DNA of 64,000 nucleotides, taken from the NCBI GenBank assembly GCA_017513125.1, contig JAFWDI010000001.1, forward strand, positions 62,001 through 126,000, written 5' to 3'. This document shows positions 10,389 through 61,203 of this stretch, in pieces. Under the pieces are notes generated by a model. It was given only the letters and a program-made list of their open reading frames with translations, did no database searches and had not been told where the DNA came from. The translations under genes and the position numbers were made by a program. The number at the start of each line of letters is the position of its first letter. Positions within the stretch are counted from its first letter, which is position 1. The stretch is from Lachnospiraceae bacterium (GTDB lineage: Bacteria; Bacillota; Clostridia; Lachnospirales; Lachnospiraceae).

Positions 10389-10661
10389 ATGAGTTCCTCC
10401 TTATAAGATTTCGGTCCGAAGACCTTTCACTGCCGGAGGCGAAAGTTTCTAAAATGAAAACCGGTCTCCGCACGAAAACAGGCAGAGACCGGAACAGGAT
10501 TCCTTCGTCACTTCCTCGGCAGGCGGCTTCCGCCTTACGCCCCGGAGGGCACCTGCTGTCTTCGGCAGTTGAATACATATGCGGGTCGGTTCCGCCGCCG
10601 GAACGACCGTTTGTGATACTACCATCCGCGCCGGAACATGTCAAGCGCGATCATCCTGCGA
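10389..10661 (-). ncRNA. Probable L10 leader RNA upstream of rplJ
   Basis: The long untranslated stretch between rplA and rplJ is where Firmicutes carry the L10 leader, bound by L10(L12)4. It contains a strong hairpin, CCGGTCTC/GAGACCGG (10461-10468 with 10485-10492), followed on the minus strand by a T-rich run (10446-10460), which could act as an attenuator. I did not align it to the known consensus, so identity rests on position and the hairpin. Confidence 0.55.
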
Positions 10662-52741: not shown

Positions 52742-53728
52742 TTATCTGCGGTTCTGGAACTCGATGAATCGGCCGGTACCGATGGCCACCGCGGTCATGG
52801 GATCGTCGGCGATCATCGTGTTGATGCCGGTGCGCTCCTGGATCAGCTGGTCCAGGCCGCCCAGCAGGCTGCCGCCGCCGGTCATCACGATGCCGCGGTC
52901 GAACACGTCCGCCGCGAGTTCCGGCGGGGTGCGCTCGAGGACGTTCCGGATCTCGTCGATGATCGTCATCGCCGGCTCGCGCAGCGCCTCCAGAGTCTCC
53001 TCGCTCGTCACGGAGATCGTCTTCGGCAGACCGGTAACGAGGTTGCGGCCCTTTACATCCATCGCCAGCGTCTCGGGGCGCTTATACGCGCAGCCGATCT
53101 CGATCTTAATGTTCTCAGCCGTGCGCTCGCCGATCAGCAGGTTATGCTTCTTACGCATATAGCGCACGATGGCCTCATCGAAGTCATCGCCCGCGATCTT
53201 CACGGACGCGCTCGTGACGGTGCCGCCCAGCGAGAGCACCGCGATATCGCTGGTGCCGCCGCCGATGTCGACGATCATGTTTCCGAAAGGCTTATAGATG
53301 TCGATGCCCGCGCCGATCGCAGCCGCGACGGGCTCCTCGATGATCGCCACTTCGCGGGCGCCGGCCTGGTAGGTCGCGTCCTCGACGGCCTTCTTCTCGA
53401 CTTCGGTCGCGCCGCTCGGGATGCAGACCGCAATGCGGGGCTTCCGGAAGCTCTTTCCGCCCATCGCCTTCTCGATGAAGAACTTCAGCATGCGCTCGGT
53501 CACCTGGTAATCCGAGATGACGCCCTGGCGCAGCGGACGGACGGCCACGATGTTTCCGGGGGTACGCCCGATCATCAGGCGCGCCTCCTCACCGATGGCG
53601 CGGATCTGGTTCGTGTCGCGGTCGAAGGCCACCACCGAGGGCTCCTTCAGCACGACGCCTCTTCCCTTTATATAGACCAGGACGCTCGCGGTACCCAGGT
53701 CAATGCCGATATCATTAGAAAAAACCAT
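52742..53728 (-). CDS. mreB: Actin-like cell-shape protein MreB/Mbl
   Basis: Bacterial actin that directs rod-shaped wall growth. The 328-residue product has the phosphate-1 loop NDIGIDLGTASVLVY, VAVCIPSGATEVEKKAV-like (RIAVCIPSG), phosphate-2 IVDIGGGTSDIAVLSLGG and the adenosine motif VMTGGGSLLGGLDQLI. Length is slightly short but normal for the Mbl branch. GGAGG ahead of the ATG. No mreC or mreD follow, so it may be the solitary Mbl-type paralogue. Confidence 0.95.
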   Translation of the reverse strand: MVFSNDIGIDLGTASVLVYIKGRGVVLKEPSVVAFDRDTNQIRAIGEEARLMIGRTPGNIVAVRPLRQGVISDYQVTERMLKFFIEKAMGGKSFRKPRIAVCIPSGATEVEKKAVEDATYQAGAREVAIIEEPVAAAIGAGIDIYKPFGNMIVDIGGGTSDIAVLSLGGTVTSASVKIAGDDFDEAIVRYMRKKHNLLIGERTAENIKIEIGCAYKRPETLAMDVKGRNLVTGLPKTISVTSEETLEALREPAMTIIDEIRNVLERTPPELAADVFDRGIVMTGGGSLLGGLDQLIQERTGINTMIADDPMTAVAIGTGRFIEFQNRR

Positions 53729-53956: not shown

Positions 53957-53980
53957 GAGGCCCGCGCGAACGCGGGCCTC
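53957..53980 (-). terminator. Terminator of the DUF169 redox operon
   Basis: GAGGCCCGCG/CGCGGGCCTC (53957-53966, 53971-53980) with a CGAA loop, followed on the minus strand by TTTAC. Located 30 bases after the reductase stop. Confidence 0.8.
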
Positions 53981-54010
53981 AGGAAAATCACGGTGTCGGG
54001 AACGATCACG

Positions 54011-55657
54011 TCATCCCTCGTCCACCCACATCCAGTGGGCGCAGAAACCGCCCGTGACATTCTTTGCGTCAAAGCCGTTCTGCGAAAGAATATTACAGGC
54101 GTTCCAGGCGCGGCCGCCGACCCAGCAGCTGACCAGGTACTTCTTCGACTTGTCCAGCTCGCCCATGCGCGCGCGGAGTTCGTCGAGCGGGATATTGATC
54201 GCACCCTCGAAATGTCCGTCCTCGAACTCTTCGACCGTGCGCACGTCGAGGATGACCGTGTCGGGATCCTCCGCGGCCTGCGCGAGCGCATCCTGCGCCG
54301 TGATCAGCCGCTCCTCGCCGCGCAGCGAGTTCGACGCGACCATACCCAGAAGGATGACCGGATCCTTCGCGGAGCCGTAAGGCGGCGCATAGCACAGATC
54401 CAGGTTCTCCAGGTCGAAGACCGTCAGGCCGCCCATGATCGCGGTGGCGATCACGTCGATCCGCTTATCCACGCCGTGCCAGCCGATGCCCTGGCAGCCC
54501 AGGATCTTTCCGGTGGACTTCTCATAGATCAGCTTCAGGATCAGGGTCGCCGCGGTGGGGTAATAGCTGGCATTGCTCGCCGAAGGCAGCCAGACCACCT
54601 CGTAATCGCGCTCCTGCGCCTTCGCCTCCTTCTCGATCATGCCGGTCTTCGCGACGCACAGGGCTCCGGTCTTAATGATGGTCGTGCCCACGACGCCGCG
54701 GAAGGTCATGTGTCTGCCGCAGGCGTTCGCGCCCGCGATGCGGCCCTGCTTATTCGCGGTGCCCGCGAGCGAGTTGCGGATCTTCTTTCCGGAGACCAGG
54801 TTCACGGACTCGACGATGTCTCCCGCCGCGAACACGTCGGGCAGGTTCGTGCGCATGCACCCGTCGACCTCGATGCCGCCTGCCGGGCCCATCTTCACGC
54901 CCGCGTCCTTCGCGAGCTGCAGTCTGGGCCGGACGCCCACTGCCATGATGACCATGTCGGTGTCCAGAACGCTGCCGTCGGACAGCACCGCCTGCTCGGC
55001 CTTTCCGCTGCCCTTCACCTCCGAAAGGCCCACGCCGATTCGGACCTTCACGCCGCGCGTCTCCAGATGGCGCTCCAGCGGCGGAGAGAACTCCGGATCC
55101 AGGATCGACAGCAGCTGCGGTGCGAACTCCACGAGCGTGGTATCCACGCCCCTCTGCGCCAGCTCGTCCGCGGTCTCGAGGCCGATAAAGCCTCCGCCCA
55201 CGACGACGGCTTTCTTCGCGCCCGCGCCGAGAGCGGCCATGATCTTATCCACGTCCGGGACGGTGAAGACATTGTACACGCCGGGAAGATCATTTCCGGG
55301 GATCGGCGGGTTCACCGGCTCGCCGCCCGTGGCCAGCACCAGTTTATCGTACGTCTCCTCGAACGGTCCCGCGGGGCTCTCGCCGCGCACGACCTTCTTC
55401 TCCGGGTCGAACGACGTCACTTTATGGAACAGGCGCACGTCAATGTTATAGCGCGACTTGAACATTTCCGGGGAAACCAGGATCAGGTTCTCGCGCTCCG
55501 GGATGGTCCCGCCCACATAGTAGGGCAGGCCGCAGTTCGCGAACGAGACATACTCGCCCTGCTCGAGAATGATGATCTCGGCATTTTCATCCGTGCGCCG
55601 TGCCTTCGCGGCAGCGCCCGCTCCGGCGGCCACGCCGCCGATAACTACTATTTTCAT
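54011..55657 (-). CDS. CoA-disulfide reductase with C-terminal rhodanese domain
   Basis: Flavoprotein of the CoADR-Rhd/Nsr type, known to reduce CoA disulfides, CoA persulfide or polysulfide with NAD(P)H. The 548-residue product has FAD-binding VVIGGVAAGAGAAAKARR, the active Cys42 in SFANCGLPYYVGG, the NAD-binding VVGGGFIGLETADELA, VFAAGDI, and after about residue 450 a rhodanese domain with LDVRTVEEFEDGHFEGAINI and the sulfur-carrying Cys511 in SCWVGGRA. Both active cysteines are present. Last gene of a five-gene operon with DUF169 and C_GCAxxG_C_C genes. Confidence 0.92.
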   Translation of the reverse strand: MKIVVIGGVAAGAGAAAKARRTDENAEIIILEQGEYVSFANCGLPYYVGGTIPERENLILVSPEMFKSRYNIDVRLFHKVTSFDPEKKVVRGESPAGPFEETYDKLVLATGGEPVNPPIPGNDLPGVYNVFTVPDVDKIMAALGAGAKKAVVVGGGFIGLETADELAQRGVDTTLVEFAPQLLSILDPEFSPPLERHLETRGVKVRIGVGLSEVKGSGKAEQAVLSDGSVLDTDMVIMAVGVRPRLQLAKDAGVKMGPAGGIEVDGCMRTNLPDVFAAGDIVESVNLVSGKKIRNSLAGTANKQGRIAGANACGRHMTFRGVVGTTIIKTGALCVAKTGMIEKEAKAQERDYEVVWLPSASNASYYPTAATLILKLIYEKSTGKILGCQGIGWHGVDKRIDVIATAIMGGLTVFDLENLDLCYAPPYGSAKDPVILLGMVASNSLRGEERLITAQDALAQAAEDPDTVILDVRTVEEFEDGHFEGAINIPLDELRARMGELDKSKKYLVSCWVGGRAWNACNILSQNGFDAKNVTGGFCAHWMWVDEG

Positions 55658-55730
55658 AGGTTATACCTCTCCATACAACCCTCCGCGCGGAAGGCCCGCG
55701 CGGAGGTCCATTATGACAGTACGGTTCCGA

Positions 55731-56543
55731 TCAGTGTTCCCAGACCTCGCTCTCGTCCAGGCCCCAGATCCGGTAAAGCTCATTATAGAACGGCGGGCGG
55801 GCGAAGTTATACTTCATGATCAGCTTCATGCCCTTATAGCCCACGGTGCGGCCGTCGATCAGGCGGCAGCCGGTCATCAGCTCGTCGAGCTTTGCCGGCG
55901 GCACGGACAGGATGATCTCGTTCTTATCCGACAGCGCGCGCTCCTGATCGCCCGGATCCGGGATCGTGATGCGGTACTCCTGGTTCAGATACGCTTCCAC
56001 GATCGAGTGGATGCAGGAGTCGATCGCGTCGAAGGAGGTCTCCAGCATCTTGCCGGTCTGGCTCTTGATGCCCCAGATCATGAAGCGGAGCTGGAAGTTG
56101 TTATCACAGTTGATCAGGATCATATCCGGCTCGAACTGCGCGTCCTGCATCGGGGCGATCAGCAGGCCCTTGTACTTGTTCGCGGGCAGCTTCGGGAACT
56201 TCGCGAAGAACGCTCTCGCGGCATCCATGTCCGCGATGCCCAGAGCGCCCGCCACGATCTCGAACGACTCCATGCCGGGCTCGCACTCCACATGGCCCAG
56301 GCCGATCAGCGGGTTCCAGCACCAGTGATCTTCCTTCACGATATAGACGGTCTTTCCCTCGCGCTTCGTCAGGGCAATGGCCTGGCACAGAGCCATGTGC
56401 TCGCCTCTCTCGCGCGGACGGTACGCGTCCTCGGGAACGATCGACTCATCCTCGACGAATTTATACGCCTGGATGTTCAGGGTCAGGTCCATCAGTTCCT
56501 TCAGTTCCTTCGCATAAGCATGCATTTTTTCGATATCAAACAT
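55731..56543 (-). CDS. DUF169 family protein, second copy
   Basis: Unknown function. The 270-residue product is a paralogue of the one at 57663; shared blocks include ERGEHMALCQAIALTKREGK, KEDHWCWNPLIGLG, AQFEPDMILINCDN, SGKML-like TGKMLE, DSCIHS and IPDPGDQERALSDKNEI. The conserved Cys residues (MxxCQ, EDHWC, DSCxHS) point to a metal or thiol role. Good AAGGGAGA site. Between the C_GCAxxG_C_C gene and the CoA-disulfide reductase. Confidence 0.88.
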   Translation of the reverse strand: MFDIEKMHAYAKELKELMDLTLNIQAYKFVEDESIVPEDAYRPRERGEHMALCQAIALTKREGKTVYIVKEDHWCWNPLIGLGHVECEPGMESFEIVAGALGIADMDAARAFFAKFPKLPANKYKGLLIAPMQDAQFEPDMILINCDNNFQLRFMIWGIKSQTGKMLETSFDAIDSCIHSIVEAYLNQEYRITIPDPGDQERALSDKNEIILSVPPAKLDELMTGCRLIDGRTVGYKGMKLIMKYNFARPPFYNELYRIWGLDESEVWEH

Positions 56544-56624
56544 TTCTGTCTCCCTTCTTAATATGCGCCTCTGCGGCGCCGGTCTCCGCGTTTCGCCGGC
56601 CGGTCAATGCCGGCCGCCGCGCTT

Positions 56625-57128
56625 TTACTCATCCTCCAGCAGCATCTCCGCCGCCAGTCTCGTCGCCGTCGCCACGGTCTCCGCGCACTTCTCGACGTGG
56701 CCGGGCAAGGTCAGGAACTCCTGCGCCTCGGCGTCGTCCAGAAGGTTATACGAACGGCCGAACAGCTTCTCGTGCACCTTCGGGCACATGATCGAGCCCA
56801 TCTCGGCGATGAACTTATCCCGGTACATCGAGAAATGCATCGCGGTCTTCCCGAAGGCCTCGTCGTCCTGCAGCTCTTCCTCGATCGTCGAGTTATACTT
56901 CAGGCCGACCGCCAGCAGGCCGCAGCAGTAGGCTCCGCAGCTGCCCGAGGCGCTGCCGGTGCCGCCGCACAGGGACGCGCTGGCCTTGATCATCTCGTCC
57001 GGGATCCAGTCAAAATACGACTTCAGACCCACCAGCGTACTGCGCGAGCAGACGTCGTCGCGGATCTGCGCCTTTACGCCCTCCTCCACGCATTTGTCGA
57101 TAATGGCTTTCTTTTCTTCCTGTGTCAT
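56625..57128 (-). CDS. C_GCAxxG_C_C family redox-type protein
   Basis: Small protein of a family named for its Cys pattern. The 167-residue product has ASLCGGTGSASGSCGAYCCG (Cys54, 64, 68, 69) plus Cys13 and Cys27 and further Cys near 115 and in HVEKCAE. The family is thought to be redox-active or metal-binding, often beside oxidoreductases; the reaction is unknown. AGGAGGAGAT site ahead of the ATG. Third gene of the operon. Confidence 0.9.
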   Translation of the reverse strand: MTQEEKKAIIDKCVEEGVKAQIRDDVCSRSTLVGLKSYFDWIPDEMIKASASLCGGTGSASGSCGAYCCGLLAVGLKYNSTIEEELQDDEAFGKTAMHFSMYRDKFIAEMGSIMCPKVHEKLFGRSYNLLDDAEAQEFLTLPGHVEKCAETVATATRLAAEMLLEDE

Positions 57129-57176
57129 ATGATCTCCTCCTTATCCGTTCCGGCCCCTCTCCGGCCGTATTCCTGT

Positions 57177-57617
57177 TCAGATCTCGTCGTGCAGATGCTC
57201 GAAGACGCGGTCGAGAAGCTCGAACAGCTTCACCCGCTCCTCCGGCGACAGCACATGTTCCATCCGGCGGTCATACTCATGCCGCACGGCCACGAGCCCG
57301 TCGTAAAGGCCTTCGCCTTTCGGGGTCATGTAGACGTTCTTCACGCGGCGGTCGGTCCCGTCGAACGCATAGTCGAGCAGGCCCTTATCCTTCATGCGGC
57401 TTAAGATTCCGCTCACAGCCTGGTGGGACGTGTCGAGGATGTTCTCGATCTCGCTCTGGGAGCATTTCCCTCCGTGCTCGCAGATATACAGGATAATGCG
57501 CCCCTGCGCGAACGTGAGGCCCTGCGGAGCCACGGCCTGGTTCGCCATGCGCTCGACCTCGTCCACGACGCGTCTCATCTTAAAACCCAGGACTTCCTGT
57601 TCTTCCAGCCGTTCCAT
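57177..57617 (-). CDS. MarR-family regulator in the DUF169 operon
   Basis: Winged-helix regulator, 146 residues: GLTFAQGRIILYICEHGGKC, SQSEIENILDTSHQAVSGIL recognition helix, MKDKGLLDYAFDGTDRRVKN wing. Cys52 is in the DNA-binding half and no other Cys is present, so a thiol switch is possible but unproven. GGAGGTGATC site. Second gene, between the first DUF169 gene and the C_GCAxxG_C_C gene, and the probable controller of the operon. Confidence 0.9.
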   Translation of the reverse strand: MERLEEQEVLGFKMRRVVDEVERMANQAVAPQGLTFAQGRIILYICEHGGKCSQSEIENILDTSHQAVSGILSRMKDKGLLDYAFDGTDRRVKNVYMTPKGEGLYDGLVAVRHEYDRRMEHVLSPEERVKLFELLDRVFEHLHDEI

Positions 57618-57662
57618 AGATCACCTCCAGCCGAAGTCTTCGTCCGCGGCCGACGGTCTCCG

Positions 57663-58472
57663 TCAGGATTTCGTCCAGACGTCTCCCGTGGCGAGGCCCC
57701 AGCCCTCGAACATCTCGTTATAGAACACCGGACGCGGGAAGTCATACCACATGGACATGCTCATCTCCTGATAGCCGAAGTTCACATTCGCCAGGAACTG
57801 CAGCACTTCGACGATCTCGGAGACTTTCTCCGCGCGCATCGTGAACATGACTTCGTCCTCGTCCGTCAGGGCGCGCTCATACTCGCCCGGATCCGGGAAG
57901 GTGATGTTGAAATCCTGGCCGTTCAGGACGGGGATGGACGAATGCACGCACGAATCGACCGGGTCCAGTTTCAGTTCCAGCATCTTTCCGGAGTGGAACT
58001 TCGCGGCCATCTGCAGGCTGCGGATCTGGCCCGGACGGCAGTAGACCGTCACGAGGTCGGGCTCGAACTGGCAGCTCCTGAGCGGAGCGATCGTGAAGCC
58101 GATGATGCCTTCTTCCTTCAGTCTGGGATACTCGTTCTTAAAGTATTCGATGCTCTTCTGGCGGTCGTCCACGAAGAACTTGTCTCCGTACTTCTCCGCG
58201 TCGCCCTCCTTCAGCGGGCAGATGCCGAACGACACCAGCGGCCACACGCACCAGTGATCTTCCTTCAGCATCGTGATCGCCTGGCGGTCGCGCCGCACGG
58301 CGGCGTAAGCCTGGCACATGGCCATATGCTGGCCGCGGTCCGCGAACGGACGCCAGCTGTTCTCCGGAATCGGATCTCCCTCACGCAGCAGCTTAAACGC
58401 GATGGGCGAATACCGCAGCAGGAGCAGACGCTCAAGCTTCGTACCGAGTTCGTTATATTCCTGTACCGTCAT
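57663..58472 (-). CDS. DUF169 family protein, first copy
   Basis: Unknown function; 269 residues, first gene of the operon behind AAAGGAGATC. Shares with its paralogue at 55731 the blocks RGQHMAMCQAYAAVRRDRQ, KEDHWCVWPLVSFGI, CQFEPDLVTVYCRPGQ, SGKMLELKLDPVDSCVHS and FPDPGEYERALTDEDEV. Divergence is considerable, so the duplication is old and the two may form a heteromer or act on different ligands. Confidence 0.88.
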   Translation of the reverse strand: MTVQEYNELGTKLERLLLLRYSPIAFKLLREGDPIPENSWRPFADRGQHMAMCQAYAAVRRDRQAITMLKEDHWCVWPLVSFGICPLKEGDAEKYGDKFFVDDRQKSIEYFKNEYPRLKEEGIIGFTIAPLRSCQFEPDLVTVYCRPGQIRSLQMAAKFHSGKMLELKLDPVDSCVHSSIPVLNGQDFNITFPDPGEYERALTDEDEVMFTMRAEKVSEIVEVLQFLANVNFGYQEMSMSMWYDFPRPVFYNEMFEGWGLATGDVWTKS

Positions 58473-58565
58473 GATGATCTCCTTTCAGGCTGTACAGCCC
58501 TGTAGATGAAGCGCCCGCGACCGGGCAATGCCGCCTGTCCGGCAGTCTTCCGTGCGCCCGGGAAT

Positions 58566-58613
58566 CAAAAAAGGCAACACGTTACATTTCTGTAATCAGT
58601 GTATGCCTTTTTC
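58566..58613 (-). terminator. Possible terminator after the LtaS-like gene
   Basis: AAAAAAGGC and ACAC (58567-58580) can pair with GTGT and GCCTTTTT (58600-58612) around the TTACA/TGTAA core, giving a long imperfect hairpin with A and T flanks. It may end transcription from the LtaS-like gene, but it overlaps the promoter of the next operon. Confidence 0.4.
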
Positions 58614-58626
58614 GCATTCAGGTCAA
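58582..58626 (-). promoter_or_regulatory. Promoter and probable MarR operator of the DUF169 operon
   Basis: Minus-strand TTGACC (58621-58626) and TACACT (58598-58603) are 17 bases apart. Directly downstream at the expected transcription start lies TTACA-TTTC-TGTAA (58582-58595), a perfect inverted repeat. A dimeric MarR bound there would block initiation. Confidence 0.7.
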
Positions 58627-58668: not shown

Positions 58669-61203
58669 TCAGCCGCCCGCCGCGGCCTCCCGCAGGCCCG
58701 CATAGCCCTGGGCCATGTGATCCTCGCCGTCTTCCCCATGCACGCCCTCAGGCGACCCGAGCAGGTCGAACAGATCGTCCTGCCGGTTATTTCCGCCGAA
58801 CGTGTAGTTATACTGCCACATCCAGTAGTCATTGACCACGTTCTGGATCTCCGGCGTGGCATGCACCTGGTCCCAGGCCGTAAAGTTTCCGTCCGCGTCG
58901 ATCAGGCCCATGTGGCCGATGACCGGATACTGTTCCATCTGGTCGAGCAGGAACTCCTGGTACTCCGTGGTCTCGACGCCCGCATAGCGGAGAGCCAGCG
59001 CTCCGAGATAGTTCGCGGACAGATCGTCGATCTCCTCGAACTCCCAGTCGTAGTTCGTCCAGATGAACGCCGGGGTCACGTAGCGCAGCTCGTACTGCTC
59101 CGAGGAGAGCGTGCCCACGTCCTGACCGAACAGGTCGTTCTGGAACGCGGTGCCCAGCGAAGGCCAGTGGTCGCCGAAGAAGACGATCATCGTGGGCTCG
59201 TCGACGTTCTCGAAATAGTTCAGCAGATAATCCAGCGCCTGGTTCGAGTATTTCAGCAGCGTCAGGTACTGGTTCGCCTTCCCGTAGTAGTCGTCGCTGT
59301 AGTAATAGACGTCCTGATTGAAGTTGTAGCCCGTGTAAGTGTAGGCGCCGTGGTTCTGCATCGTGATGTTATAGATGAAGAGCGGCTGGCCTTCGGGCTT
59401 ATCCTCATACAGATCCGTGATGAACCGGTAGTCCGCCATGTCGCTGACGTAGTCGCGCAGAGTCTCGTAACCCTGATAGTCGTCGATCGCGTAAAACTCG
59501 TCGAAGCCCATGTAGTCGTAAACGACGTTCCGCTTCCAGTTCTCGGGCAGATTCGGATGCATGGCCACGGTGCGCCAGCCCTGCTCGCGCAGGATGCTCG
59601 CGAGGCTGTATTCATTGTCCTGCGAATACAGATAGTACGGCGAAGTGCCCGAAGGCAGGAACGTCGTGCTGTTTCCGGTCAGGACCATGTACTCTGAAGT
59701 GCTGGTGCCGGAACCGTACACGTCCATATGCAGGCGCGTCGTGAACGTGTGCTCGTCCGCGTAGAGCCTGTCGAGCACGGACCAGACGTTCTCGCTGACT
59801 TCGATGTCCCGGACGTAGCGGAAGTCGGCGTAGCTCTCGTTCATGATGAAGATGATGTTCGTCGGTGTGATGTTCTCCGTCTCCGGCCCGCGTTCGACCC
59901 CGTCCGCGAGTTCCCGCAGCGAGTCCACACTGTAGCCGTCCGGCGAGGCAATGATCATGTCCCCGATCGAACTGAATGTGTTCAGCATGTAGCCATGCGC
60001 CTGATAGCTCTCGGTCAGACGCCAGTAACGCACGGTGATCCCGCGGTACGCGAGAAACTCCGTAAAGATCAGCAGACCGATAAAGATGACCGGCAGAACG
60101 CCGCCGATGACCGCTCCGATCAGATGTTTCCGTCCGTGCATGGGTTCGATGCGGCATTTGCTGGTAAACACGAACAGCGCCCAGGCCATCAGCAGCGCCG
60201 CGATCACGCCGTAGGTAAAGACCCAGCTGTAGGTGCCCGCCACGGTGAACGCGGTGTTTGCCGCCGCGAAATCGTAGGGCATGATCGGGTCGCCTTTCCA
60301 GCTCGAGACGAAATAGTTCGTGATGCCGTAGCTCGTGAAGATGATCTGCAGCAGCATCGACATGACGCGGACGCGCCCGGTCAGGAACCAGAAGAAACAG
60401 AAGATCGCGTAGAATATGGCGATGTTGTATCCCCAGGCGTAGTACTCCATCGTCGAAACATAGCCGTTCGCGGTCTCGAATGTGATCAGCGTGAAGAGCG
60501 GGGTCAGCCCGAGGAACAGGTTCTTCGCGATCTTCCCTGCCTTTTCATAGCGTGCTTTCGCCTTCTCGCTCAGATCCGACGGGTCCAGGTCGAACAGTCC
60601 GAAGAACAGCAGCAGGATGCCGCATGCGCCCAGGACCGCCATCGCGCCGATGCGGTAATGGAAGAACGTGACCGAAAGCGCGGACTGTCCCTCGCGCAGG
60701 CTCATCTCGTTATGGAACGCGGGGAAGACCCGCTCCCAGCGCTCGGGCAGCTTATACATCCGCACCATCGGGGCTTCCGAGATCTGCGTCGGAGTGTTCA
60801 GCGCGTGGATCGTAAGGACGTAGGTCTCGCCTTTCTCGAAGTGGATCTCTCCGACCGGGAGGTTCACGGTCATGTTTTCGCCCTGCCCCTGCAGGCCGAT
60901 GTTCTGCGAGAAGACGGTATTGCCTTCCTCGTTCGCGATCGACACTTCGAGAGTGCCGATCTGATCGCGGCAGTTGTCTACGGTGAAGGAAATGTCGACG
61001 ATGTCGCCGTGGATCGCGACGATATCCTGCGTGACGGTACGGTCATCCACCAGGCGGACCCACGAAAACGCCTCCTCGCTGCCGTAGATCAGGCTCTCGC
61101 CCGCGACCGAGGAAAAGTTCTTAATGCATAAAAAGACCAGAAAAATAAAAAAGCAGATCGAAAAGACCAGTGTGGCCTTACCTTTTGCGACTTTTAAGTT
61201 CAA
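58669..61203 (-). CDS. LtaS-like phosphoglycerol transferase (sulfatase fold) with extra N-terminal domain
   Basis: Predicted extracytoplasmic enzyme that builds or decorates a glycerol-phosphate polymer. The 844-residue product starts with TTG 61201-61203 (GGACGGAG ahead). Order: membrane helix (about 11-27), an extracytoplasmic beta-domain (about 35-155), about five membrane helices (about 185-390), then the catalytic domain with NESYAD (Glu456), the nucleophile Thr500 in YGSGTSTSEYMVLTG, and metal-binding FFGDHWP. Standard LtaS is about 650 residues and has no such N-terminal domain. The C-terminus has a Gly/Ala-rich end. Single-gene unit. Confidence 0.88.
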   Translation of the reverse strand: MNLKVAKGKATLVFSICFFIFLVFLCIKNFSSVAGESLIYGSEEAFSWVRLVDDRTVTQDIVAIHGDIVDISFTVDNCRDQIGTLEVSIANEEGNTVFSQNIGLQGQGENMTVNLPVGEIHFEKGETYVLTIHALNTPTQISEAPMVRMYKLPERWERVFPAFHNEMSLREGQSALSVTFFHYRIGAMAVLGACGILLLFFGLFDLDPSDLSEKAKARYEKAGKIAKNLFLGLTPLFTLITFETANGYVSTMEYYAWGYNIAIFYAIFCFFWFLTGRVRVMSMLLQIIFTSYGITNYFVSSWKGDPIMPYDFAAANTAFTVAGTYSWVFTYGVIAALLMAWALFVFTSKCRIEPMHGRKHLIGAVIGGVLPVIFIGLLIFTEFLAYRGITVRYWRLTESYQAHGYMLNTFSSIGDMIIASPDGYSVDSLRELADGVERGPETENITPTNIIFIMNESYADFRYVRDIEVSENVWSVLDRLYADEHTFTTRLHMDVYGSGTSTSEYMVLTGNSTTFLPSGTSPYYLYSQDNEYSLASILREQGWRTVAMHPNLPENWKRNVVYDYMGFDEFYAIDDYQGYETLRDYVSDMADYRFITDLYEDKPEGQPLFIYNITMQNHGAYTYTGYNFNQDVYYYSDDYYGKANQYLTLLKYSNQALDYLLNYFENVDEPTMIVFFGDHWPSLGTAFQNDLFGQDVGTLSSEQYELRYVTPAFIWTNYDWEFEEIDDLSANYLGALALRYAGVETTEYQEFLLDQMEQYPVIGHMGLIDADGNFTAWDQVHATPEIQNVVNDYWMWQYNYTFGGNNRQDDLFDLLGSPEGVHGEDGEDHMAQGYAGLREAAAGG

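Follow-up and report, generated by a model that had tools for sequence, protein, structure and literature searches.

Do five consecutive genes in a stretch of Lachnospiraceae DNA form a regulated operon for thiol and persulfide chemistry, and do they reveal a role for the DUF169 family (PF02596/COG2043)? The stretch, called the window here, comprises 64,000 nucleotides of contig JAFWDI010000001.1 (assembly GCA_017513125.1, positions 62,001 to 126,000), and the genes in question lie on its minus strand. PF02596 occurs in archaea and anaerobic bacteria and is, to our knowledge, uncharacterised; the original prediction, made from the sequence alone, had linked it to sulfur chemistry through this locus. 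The data are best read as a thiol/persulfide operon of a familiar type that was assembled locally, is linked to a MarR gene and carries two DUF169 proteins. It represents a local version of the established pairing of a regulator with a coenzyme A (CoA)-persulfide reductase, and the context data obtained for DUF169 are the more useful result.

Gene content and organization of the locus

In transcription order, the genes encode DUF169A (57663..58472; 269 aa), a MarR-family regulator (57177..57617; 146 aa), a C_GCAxxG_C_C protein of family PF09719 (56625..57128; 167 aa), DUF169B (55731..56543; 270 aa) and an Npsr/CoAPR-like CoA-disulfide/persulfide reductase with a C-terminal rhodanese domain (54011..55657; 548 aa), referred to below as the CoADR-rhodanese. 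All five products scored above the Pfam gathering cut-off: both DUF169 proteins are clear PF02596 members (116.1 and 115 bits, cut-off 27), the regulator matched MarR_2 with 58.3 bits (cut-off 27), the PF09719 protein scored 55.6 bits (cut-off 27), and the reductase carries Pyr_redox_2, Pyr_redox_dim and Rhodanese. Coordinates and Pfam scores confirmed the predicted gene list and order, and the short gaps that had been claimed were measured as 45, 48, 81 and 73 bases. Each gene has an ATG start with a Shine-Dalgarno-like sequence upstream, and the GC content at third codon positions (0.82-0.87, against a window gene mean of 0.80 with a standard deviation of 0.08) indicates native codon bias.

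Alignments also bore out the claim of conserved cysteines in four of the five products, namely DUF169A (Cys53, Cys75, Cys175), DUF169B (Cys53, Cys75, Cys177), the PF09719 protein and the reductase. The PF09719 protein is a divergent member that keeps all four family cysteines (Cys27, Cys64, Cys115, Cys148); with 33.3 bits against the TIGR01909 cut-off of 47.4, it belongs to the Pfam family and not to the NCBIfam one. Members of PF09719 include selenoproteins (PMC13188914), and one was induced on acetone in Desulfococcus (PMC4103992); the literature search found no assigned function for the family. A link to split-Soret cytochromes was discarded, the match to 1h21 having an E-value of only 0.41.

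The reductase and its relatives

The best PDB matches of the reductase were Npsr of Shewanella loihica (3nta, E 5e-139) and the CoA-persulfide reductase of Enterococcus faecalis (8a56, E 2e-137), with alignments running the full length of the protein through the rhodanese domain. The complete plan of a flavin adenine dinucleotide (FAD)/NAD disulfide oxidoreductase, a dimerisation domain and a C-terminal rhodanese is present, and both catalytic cysteines are in place, Cys42 in the motif SFANCGLPYY and Cys511 as the rhodanese cysteine. The whole-length domain order and this cysteine pair are those of the Npsr/CoAPR enzymes of S. loihica, E. faecalis and Archaeoglobus (6pfz). The protein ends after the rhodanese domain and thus has neither TusA nor DsrE domains. 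It scored 431.2 bits against the strict CoA-disulfide reductase equivalog TIGR03385, below the cut-off of 578.8, and was therefore not classed as a strict CoA-disulfide reductase. Published enzymes of the Npsr/CoAPR type reduce persulfides and polysulfide, and the Archaeoglobus Npsr lacks CoA disulfide reduction (PMC7969121); mechanism and structures have been published for the family (PMC7969121, PMC9405070).

Genomic context analyses were extended to 24 other clostridial CoADR-rhodanese loci, in which one ArsR and one TusA assignment were checked with profiles and the other neighbours were named by reading their sequences. An ArsR-type regulator adjoined the reductase gene in seven of them and a Crp/Fnr-type regulator in three, and genes for TusA, rhodanese or thioredoxin lay nearby in several; a relative of the window MarR was absent from all 24.

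Two described operons offer a precedent. In Bacteroides fragilis, the MarR-family regulator BmoR acts as a repressor that binds its own operon (BF638R_0572-bmoR), which encodes a CoADR-rhodanese-TusA-DsrE protein and is tied to thiol/disulfide balance (PMC6158253). There, a MarR gene shares an operon with a CoADR-rhodanese gene, and the promoter contains an inverted repeat; in the window, the MarR and CoADR-rhodanese genes lie on the same strand in a run of genes with short gaps, with a hairpin ahead of the reductase gene. The differences are that binding and repression were demonstrated for BmoR whereas the window has a candidate palindrome only, that the Bacteroides enzyme carries TusA and DsrE domains, and that the available part of that report describes no DUF169 or PF09719 gene in the operon. 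In E. faecalis, a dedicated repressor controls the CoA-persulfide reductase (PMC9405070); the cst-like operon concerned (CstR, RhdA, RhdB, CoAPR) likewise combines a local regulator with the reductase, but the regulator is CstR rather than MarR, and the partners are rhodaneses rather than DUF169 or PF09719 proteins. Given these precedents and the ArsR and Crp/Fnr neighbours in the clostridial loci, a regulator beside a CoADR-rhodanese is a known theme, in which MarR is the less usual partner. The claim of a MarR-linked persulfide/disulfide reductase unit is supported by both catalytic cysteines, by the regulators and sulfur-relay genes beside clostridial relatives, and by the BmoR precedent.

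There is about an even chance that the five genes are a transcription unit, most likely under their own MarR regulator, with a CoA-persulfide/polysulfide reductase resembling Npsr and CoAPR as its catalytic core. In such a unit, the MarR protein would sense a stress compound and might regulate its own expression. Cys511 of the rhodanese would take up sulfane sulfur, bound CoA would shuttle it from Cys511 to Cys42, and FAD with NADH would reduce the sulfur to sulfide, so that persulfides or disulfides would not accumulate in the CoA and thiol pool. As a cysteine-rich redox partner, the PF09719 protein would assist the reductase, and the DUF169 pair may be passengers or auxiliary enzymes, with a role that is not derivable from the locus.

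Two further observations concern CoADR-rhodanese genes. On one strand of locus L146:3968-8481 (genome G149) lie genes for an ArsR regulator, an 833-aa CoADR-rhodanese fusion, a Nitro_FeMo-Co protein and, two genes from the reductase, a PF09719 protein; G149 also has PF09719 near DUF169 (locus L075). An Rfam match to the Vibrio antisense RNA V_AS7 at window 55470-55638 (plus strand), on the strand opposite the beginning of the reductase gene, was rejected as far below the gathering score (45.8 bits against 90) and probably reflects coding homology.

Candidate transcription signals and proposed regulation

The five genes are flanked by a gene for a sulfatase-domain membrane protein (58669-61203, same strand) and by mreB (52742-53728). 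The original prediction listed one promoter with an operator-like dyad. The dyad was found upstream of DUF169A as an AT-rich extended palindrome (58562..58612, minus strand) with arms and core AAAAAGGCA...TTACAGAAATGTAA...TGCCTTTTTT; the core TTACAGAAATGTAA occupies 58582-58595, and the 15-base core pattern ATTACANNNNTGTAA is unique within the assembly of 2.2 Mb. The palindrome may serve as a MarR operator, as an intrinsic terminator of the sulfatase gene, or as both; the terminator reading fits equally well. A sigma-70-like promoter candidate overlaps the palindrome (TTGACC-17-TACACT, 58598..58626, minus strand, 9/12 match).

The single terminator that had been proposed is less certain than claimed: the GC hairpin after the reductase gene (53957..53980, minus strand) is strong, with a 10 bp stem and -30.9 kcal/mol, but its U-tract is poor (UUU only). 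A further GC hairpin with an 11 bp stem and no U-tract lies at 55680..55706 (minus strand), between DUF169B and the reductase gene, and may stabilise or partly end the transcript. One continuous transcript of all five genes is the simplest reading, and in view of this hairpin we regard it as likely only.

Several points weigh against a single MarR-controlled unit. The promoter candidate is one of four in the region, where 2.9 are expected, and therefore stands at chance level. The dyad may belong to the upstream sulfatase gene as its terminator, since as RNA it forms a hairpin of -23.7 kcal/mol followed by six U, about 57 bases past the stop of that same-strand gene. The intergenic 11-bp hairpin sets the reductase gene apart from the other four. 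The closest relative of the reductase (53%, in genome G631) is near genes for a CoA-transferase, an acyl-CoA dehydrogenase, electron-transfer proteins and a TetR-like regulator, and no sulfur genes were recognised there when the neighbours were named by reading their sequences. The MarR protein is an orphan: a search of 97 further genomes from the family and order yielded no close orthologue (best match 32% identical), and its nearest relatives (24-32% identical) lack Cys46 and Cys52, so that a thiol switch could not be upheld by conservation. Finally, none of the other genomes searched showed the five-gene arrangement, nor did any DUF169 locus read from the other DUF169-positive genomes of the 397-genome family search.

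Conservation of the five-gene set

Genes for DUF169 were detected in 23 of the 397 family genomes searched, which represent about 330 genera, as well as in 20 of 391 genomes at class level and 6 of 325 at order level; a second family-wide draw was largely nested in the first and therefore added no new DUF169 genomes. In total, 69 DUF169 loci outside the window were read; they included 26 genome loci with DUF169A relatives and loci from whole-genome searches. A CoADR-rhodanese gene was near DUF169 in none of the 69, where weak hits of at most 56 bits were other oxidoreductases, and a relative of the window MarR was likewise near DUF169 in none. PF09719 was near DUF169 in only two loci: it is adjacent in L113 (genome G680), where an NlpA-type importer is also present, and lies at a distance of 2.3 kb in L075 (G149). 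Chance alone predicts about 0.3 such cases among the 42 loci obtained by unbiased searches (P 0.04). At the genome level, PF09719 was present in 33 of 38 genomes with DUF169 against 39 of 58 relatives without it (p 0.03), groups that differ in taxonomy. These are weak hints of co-occurrence and do not amount to a conserved system.

The co-occurrence check suggested with the original prediction therefore failed for gene adjacency and left a weak, taxonomically confounded trend for DUF169 with PF09719. The claimed link of DUF169 to sulfur chemistry was not borne out at the 69 other loci, and, since the grouping is absent from the other genomes searched, the five-gene locus does not demonstrate a sulfur-related activity of DUF169.

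The same absence favours the first alternative, a loose accretion: chance or horizontal transfer would have brought DUF169A, DUF169B, the PF09719 protein and the reductase together, the genes would be co-transcribed without a common pathway, and their grouping would carry no special meaning. The two DUF169 proteins belong to separate subclades and differ in their nearest relatives, and the nearest kin of DUF169A are found in metagenome-assembled genomes (MAGs) of Oscillospiraceae/Clostridiales, not in the sampled genomes of the source genome's own family. Against it stand the native codon bias, the regular short gaps, a ribosome-binding site for each gene and the family-conserved cysteines of four of the five products, which together make a more coherent set than a random one. 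Accretion is on balance somewhat unlikely.

Properties of the DUF169 proteins

DUF169A and DUF169B are 34% identical, and 26 relatives of DUF169A were found at 49-71% identity. In a tree of 78 DUF169 proteins, built by a quick method and with some long branches, both window copies fell into one clade of 42 proteins, in separate subclades, and a separate clade of 22 proteins was linked to importers. DUF169A neighbours proteins of Oscillospiraceae/Clostridiales MAGs (71%), and DUF169B stands beside the protein of G631. Three cysteines are near-invariant in the family, Cys53 in 74 of 78 proteins, Cys75 in 75 of 78 and Cys175 in all 78, and suggest a metal or iron-sulfur (Fe-S) site. In the AlphaFold model of DUF169A (mean pLDDT 91, pTM 0.87), each of them is placed at, or just ahead of, the start of a helix. 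Structure comparison with the PDB and viral models gave no significant match (lowest Foldseek E-values 0.13 and 0.51; highest VIA Z 4.2, within noise), nor did a sequence search of the PDB; a missing match does not prove a new fold. Because the cysteines are near-invariant and the sister clade is encoded with importers, we expect DUF169 to hold a metal or Fe-S cluster through cysteine ligands and to act on a small molecule.

Tandem pairs of divergent DUF169 genes, each drawn from two subclades, recurred in seven loci (L012:2232-3877, L015:7159-8804, L022:7161-8807, L032:7839-9500, L033:36-1687, L034:1488-3152, L036:7998-9660), which suggests paralogues that work together. In one reading, the window's clade consists of enzymes with a cysteine-ligated metal or Fe-S site that act as such divergent pairs, and the pair here works with the CoA-persulfide reductase and the PF09719 protein in sulfur/thiol chemistry. 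This sulfur role, which rests on a single arrangement, is very doubtful; if true, it would give PF02596 its first assigned function.

The source genome has four DUF169 copies. The two outside the window (L007:7424-8185 and L008:7659-8486, on contigs C33 and C13 of G000) comprise one from a distant clade and one 38% identical to DUF169A. Neither adjoins a PF09719, related MarR or CoADR-rhodanese gene, and one weak 19-bit oxidoreductase hit lies at the edge of L008. A further DUF169 gene of the A type was not found in the sampled genomes of the source genome's own family.

Genes that adjoin DUF169 elsewhere

One branch of DUF169 is associated with importers. By sequence match, importers adjoin 18 of the 22 proteins of the separate clade against 2 of the 42 in the window's clade (p 3e-10, an optimistic value because near relatives were counted separately). 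The DUF169 gene stands at the end of the importer cluster, and the importers are of the NlpA/MetQ type of ATP-binding cassette (ABC) transporter in nine loci (L064, L065, L067, L072, L076, L110, L113, L115, L120), energy-coupling factor (ECF) transporters with an ABC_cobalt-type S component in six (L010, L111, L112, L114, L116, L117), and NMT1-like or OpuC-like in three (L062, L068, L118). Two more members of the clade adjoin amino-acid-type and dipeptide-type ABC importer genes, as judged by reading the sequences. A search for thiamine pyrophosphate, S-adenosylmethionine and cobalamin riboswitches upstream of the DUF169-importer units found none.

These neighbourhoods suggest a second alternative, that DUF169 binds, senses or processes small molecules taken up through ABC/ECF importers. 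Its target in the window would then be a compound that the reductase helps to detoxify or reduce, and the MarR protein would sense that compound and not persulfide. The best named relative of the MarR protein, the ligand-type BilQ, agrees with this, although the score is far below the BilQ cut-off. The window's clade, however, lacks the importer link and the operon lacks a transporter; the importer types differ and therefore indicate no single substrate, and the six ECF loci are closely related to each other. As an account of the window operon, this role is unlikely.

No neighbour gene is common to the DUF169 loci of the window's clade. In one of them (L027:2299-4563), genes for a zinc-type ABC-3 permease and Fur are followed by DUF169, three bases after Fur; a NiCo riboswitch and, behind it, a cation-efflux-like gene come next. 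In two loci DUF169 is beside DUF364/DUF4213 "putative heavy-metal chelation" proteins (L035:7227-8819, with a 4-base gap, and L075:6743-10667). In Desulfovibrio, a fitness effect under nitrate has been reported for a DUF169 gene that adjoins a TauE-like gene (PMC4001038). A third alternative, that the three near-invariant cysteines bind a metal or Fe-S cluster for metal homeostasis and not sulfur reduction, finds such neighbours within the window's clade but in three loci only, with no Rfam metal riboswitch ahead of DUF169 (that of L027 comes after it), and is improbable.

The DUF169 family offers three handles by which biochemistry can address its function directly: three near-invariant cysteines, a fold that is predicted with confidence but matches no solved structure significantly, and a clade whose genes accompany importers of unrelated types. 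These point no less towards importers or metal chemistry than towards sulfur.

Elsewhere in the window, a ribosomal protein L10 leader was detected above its gathering score at 10446-10583 (minus strand).

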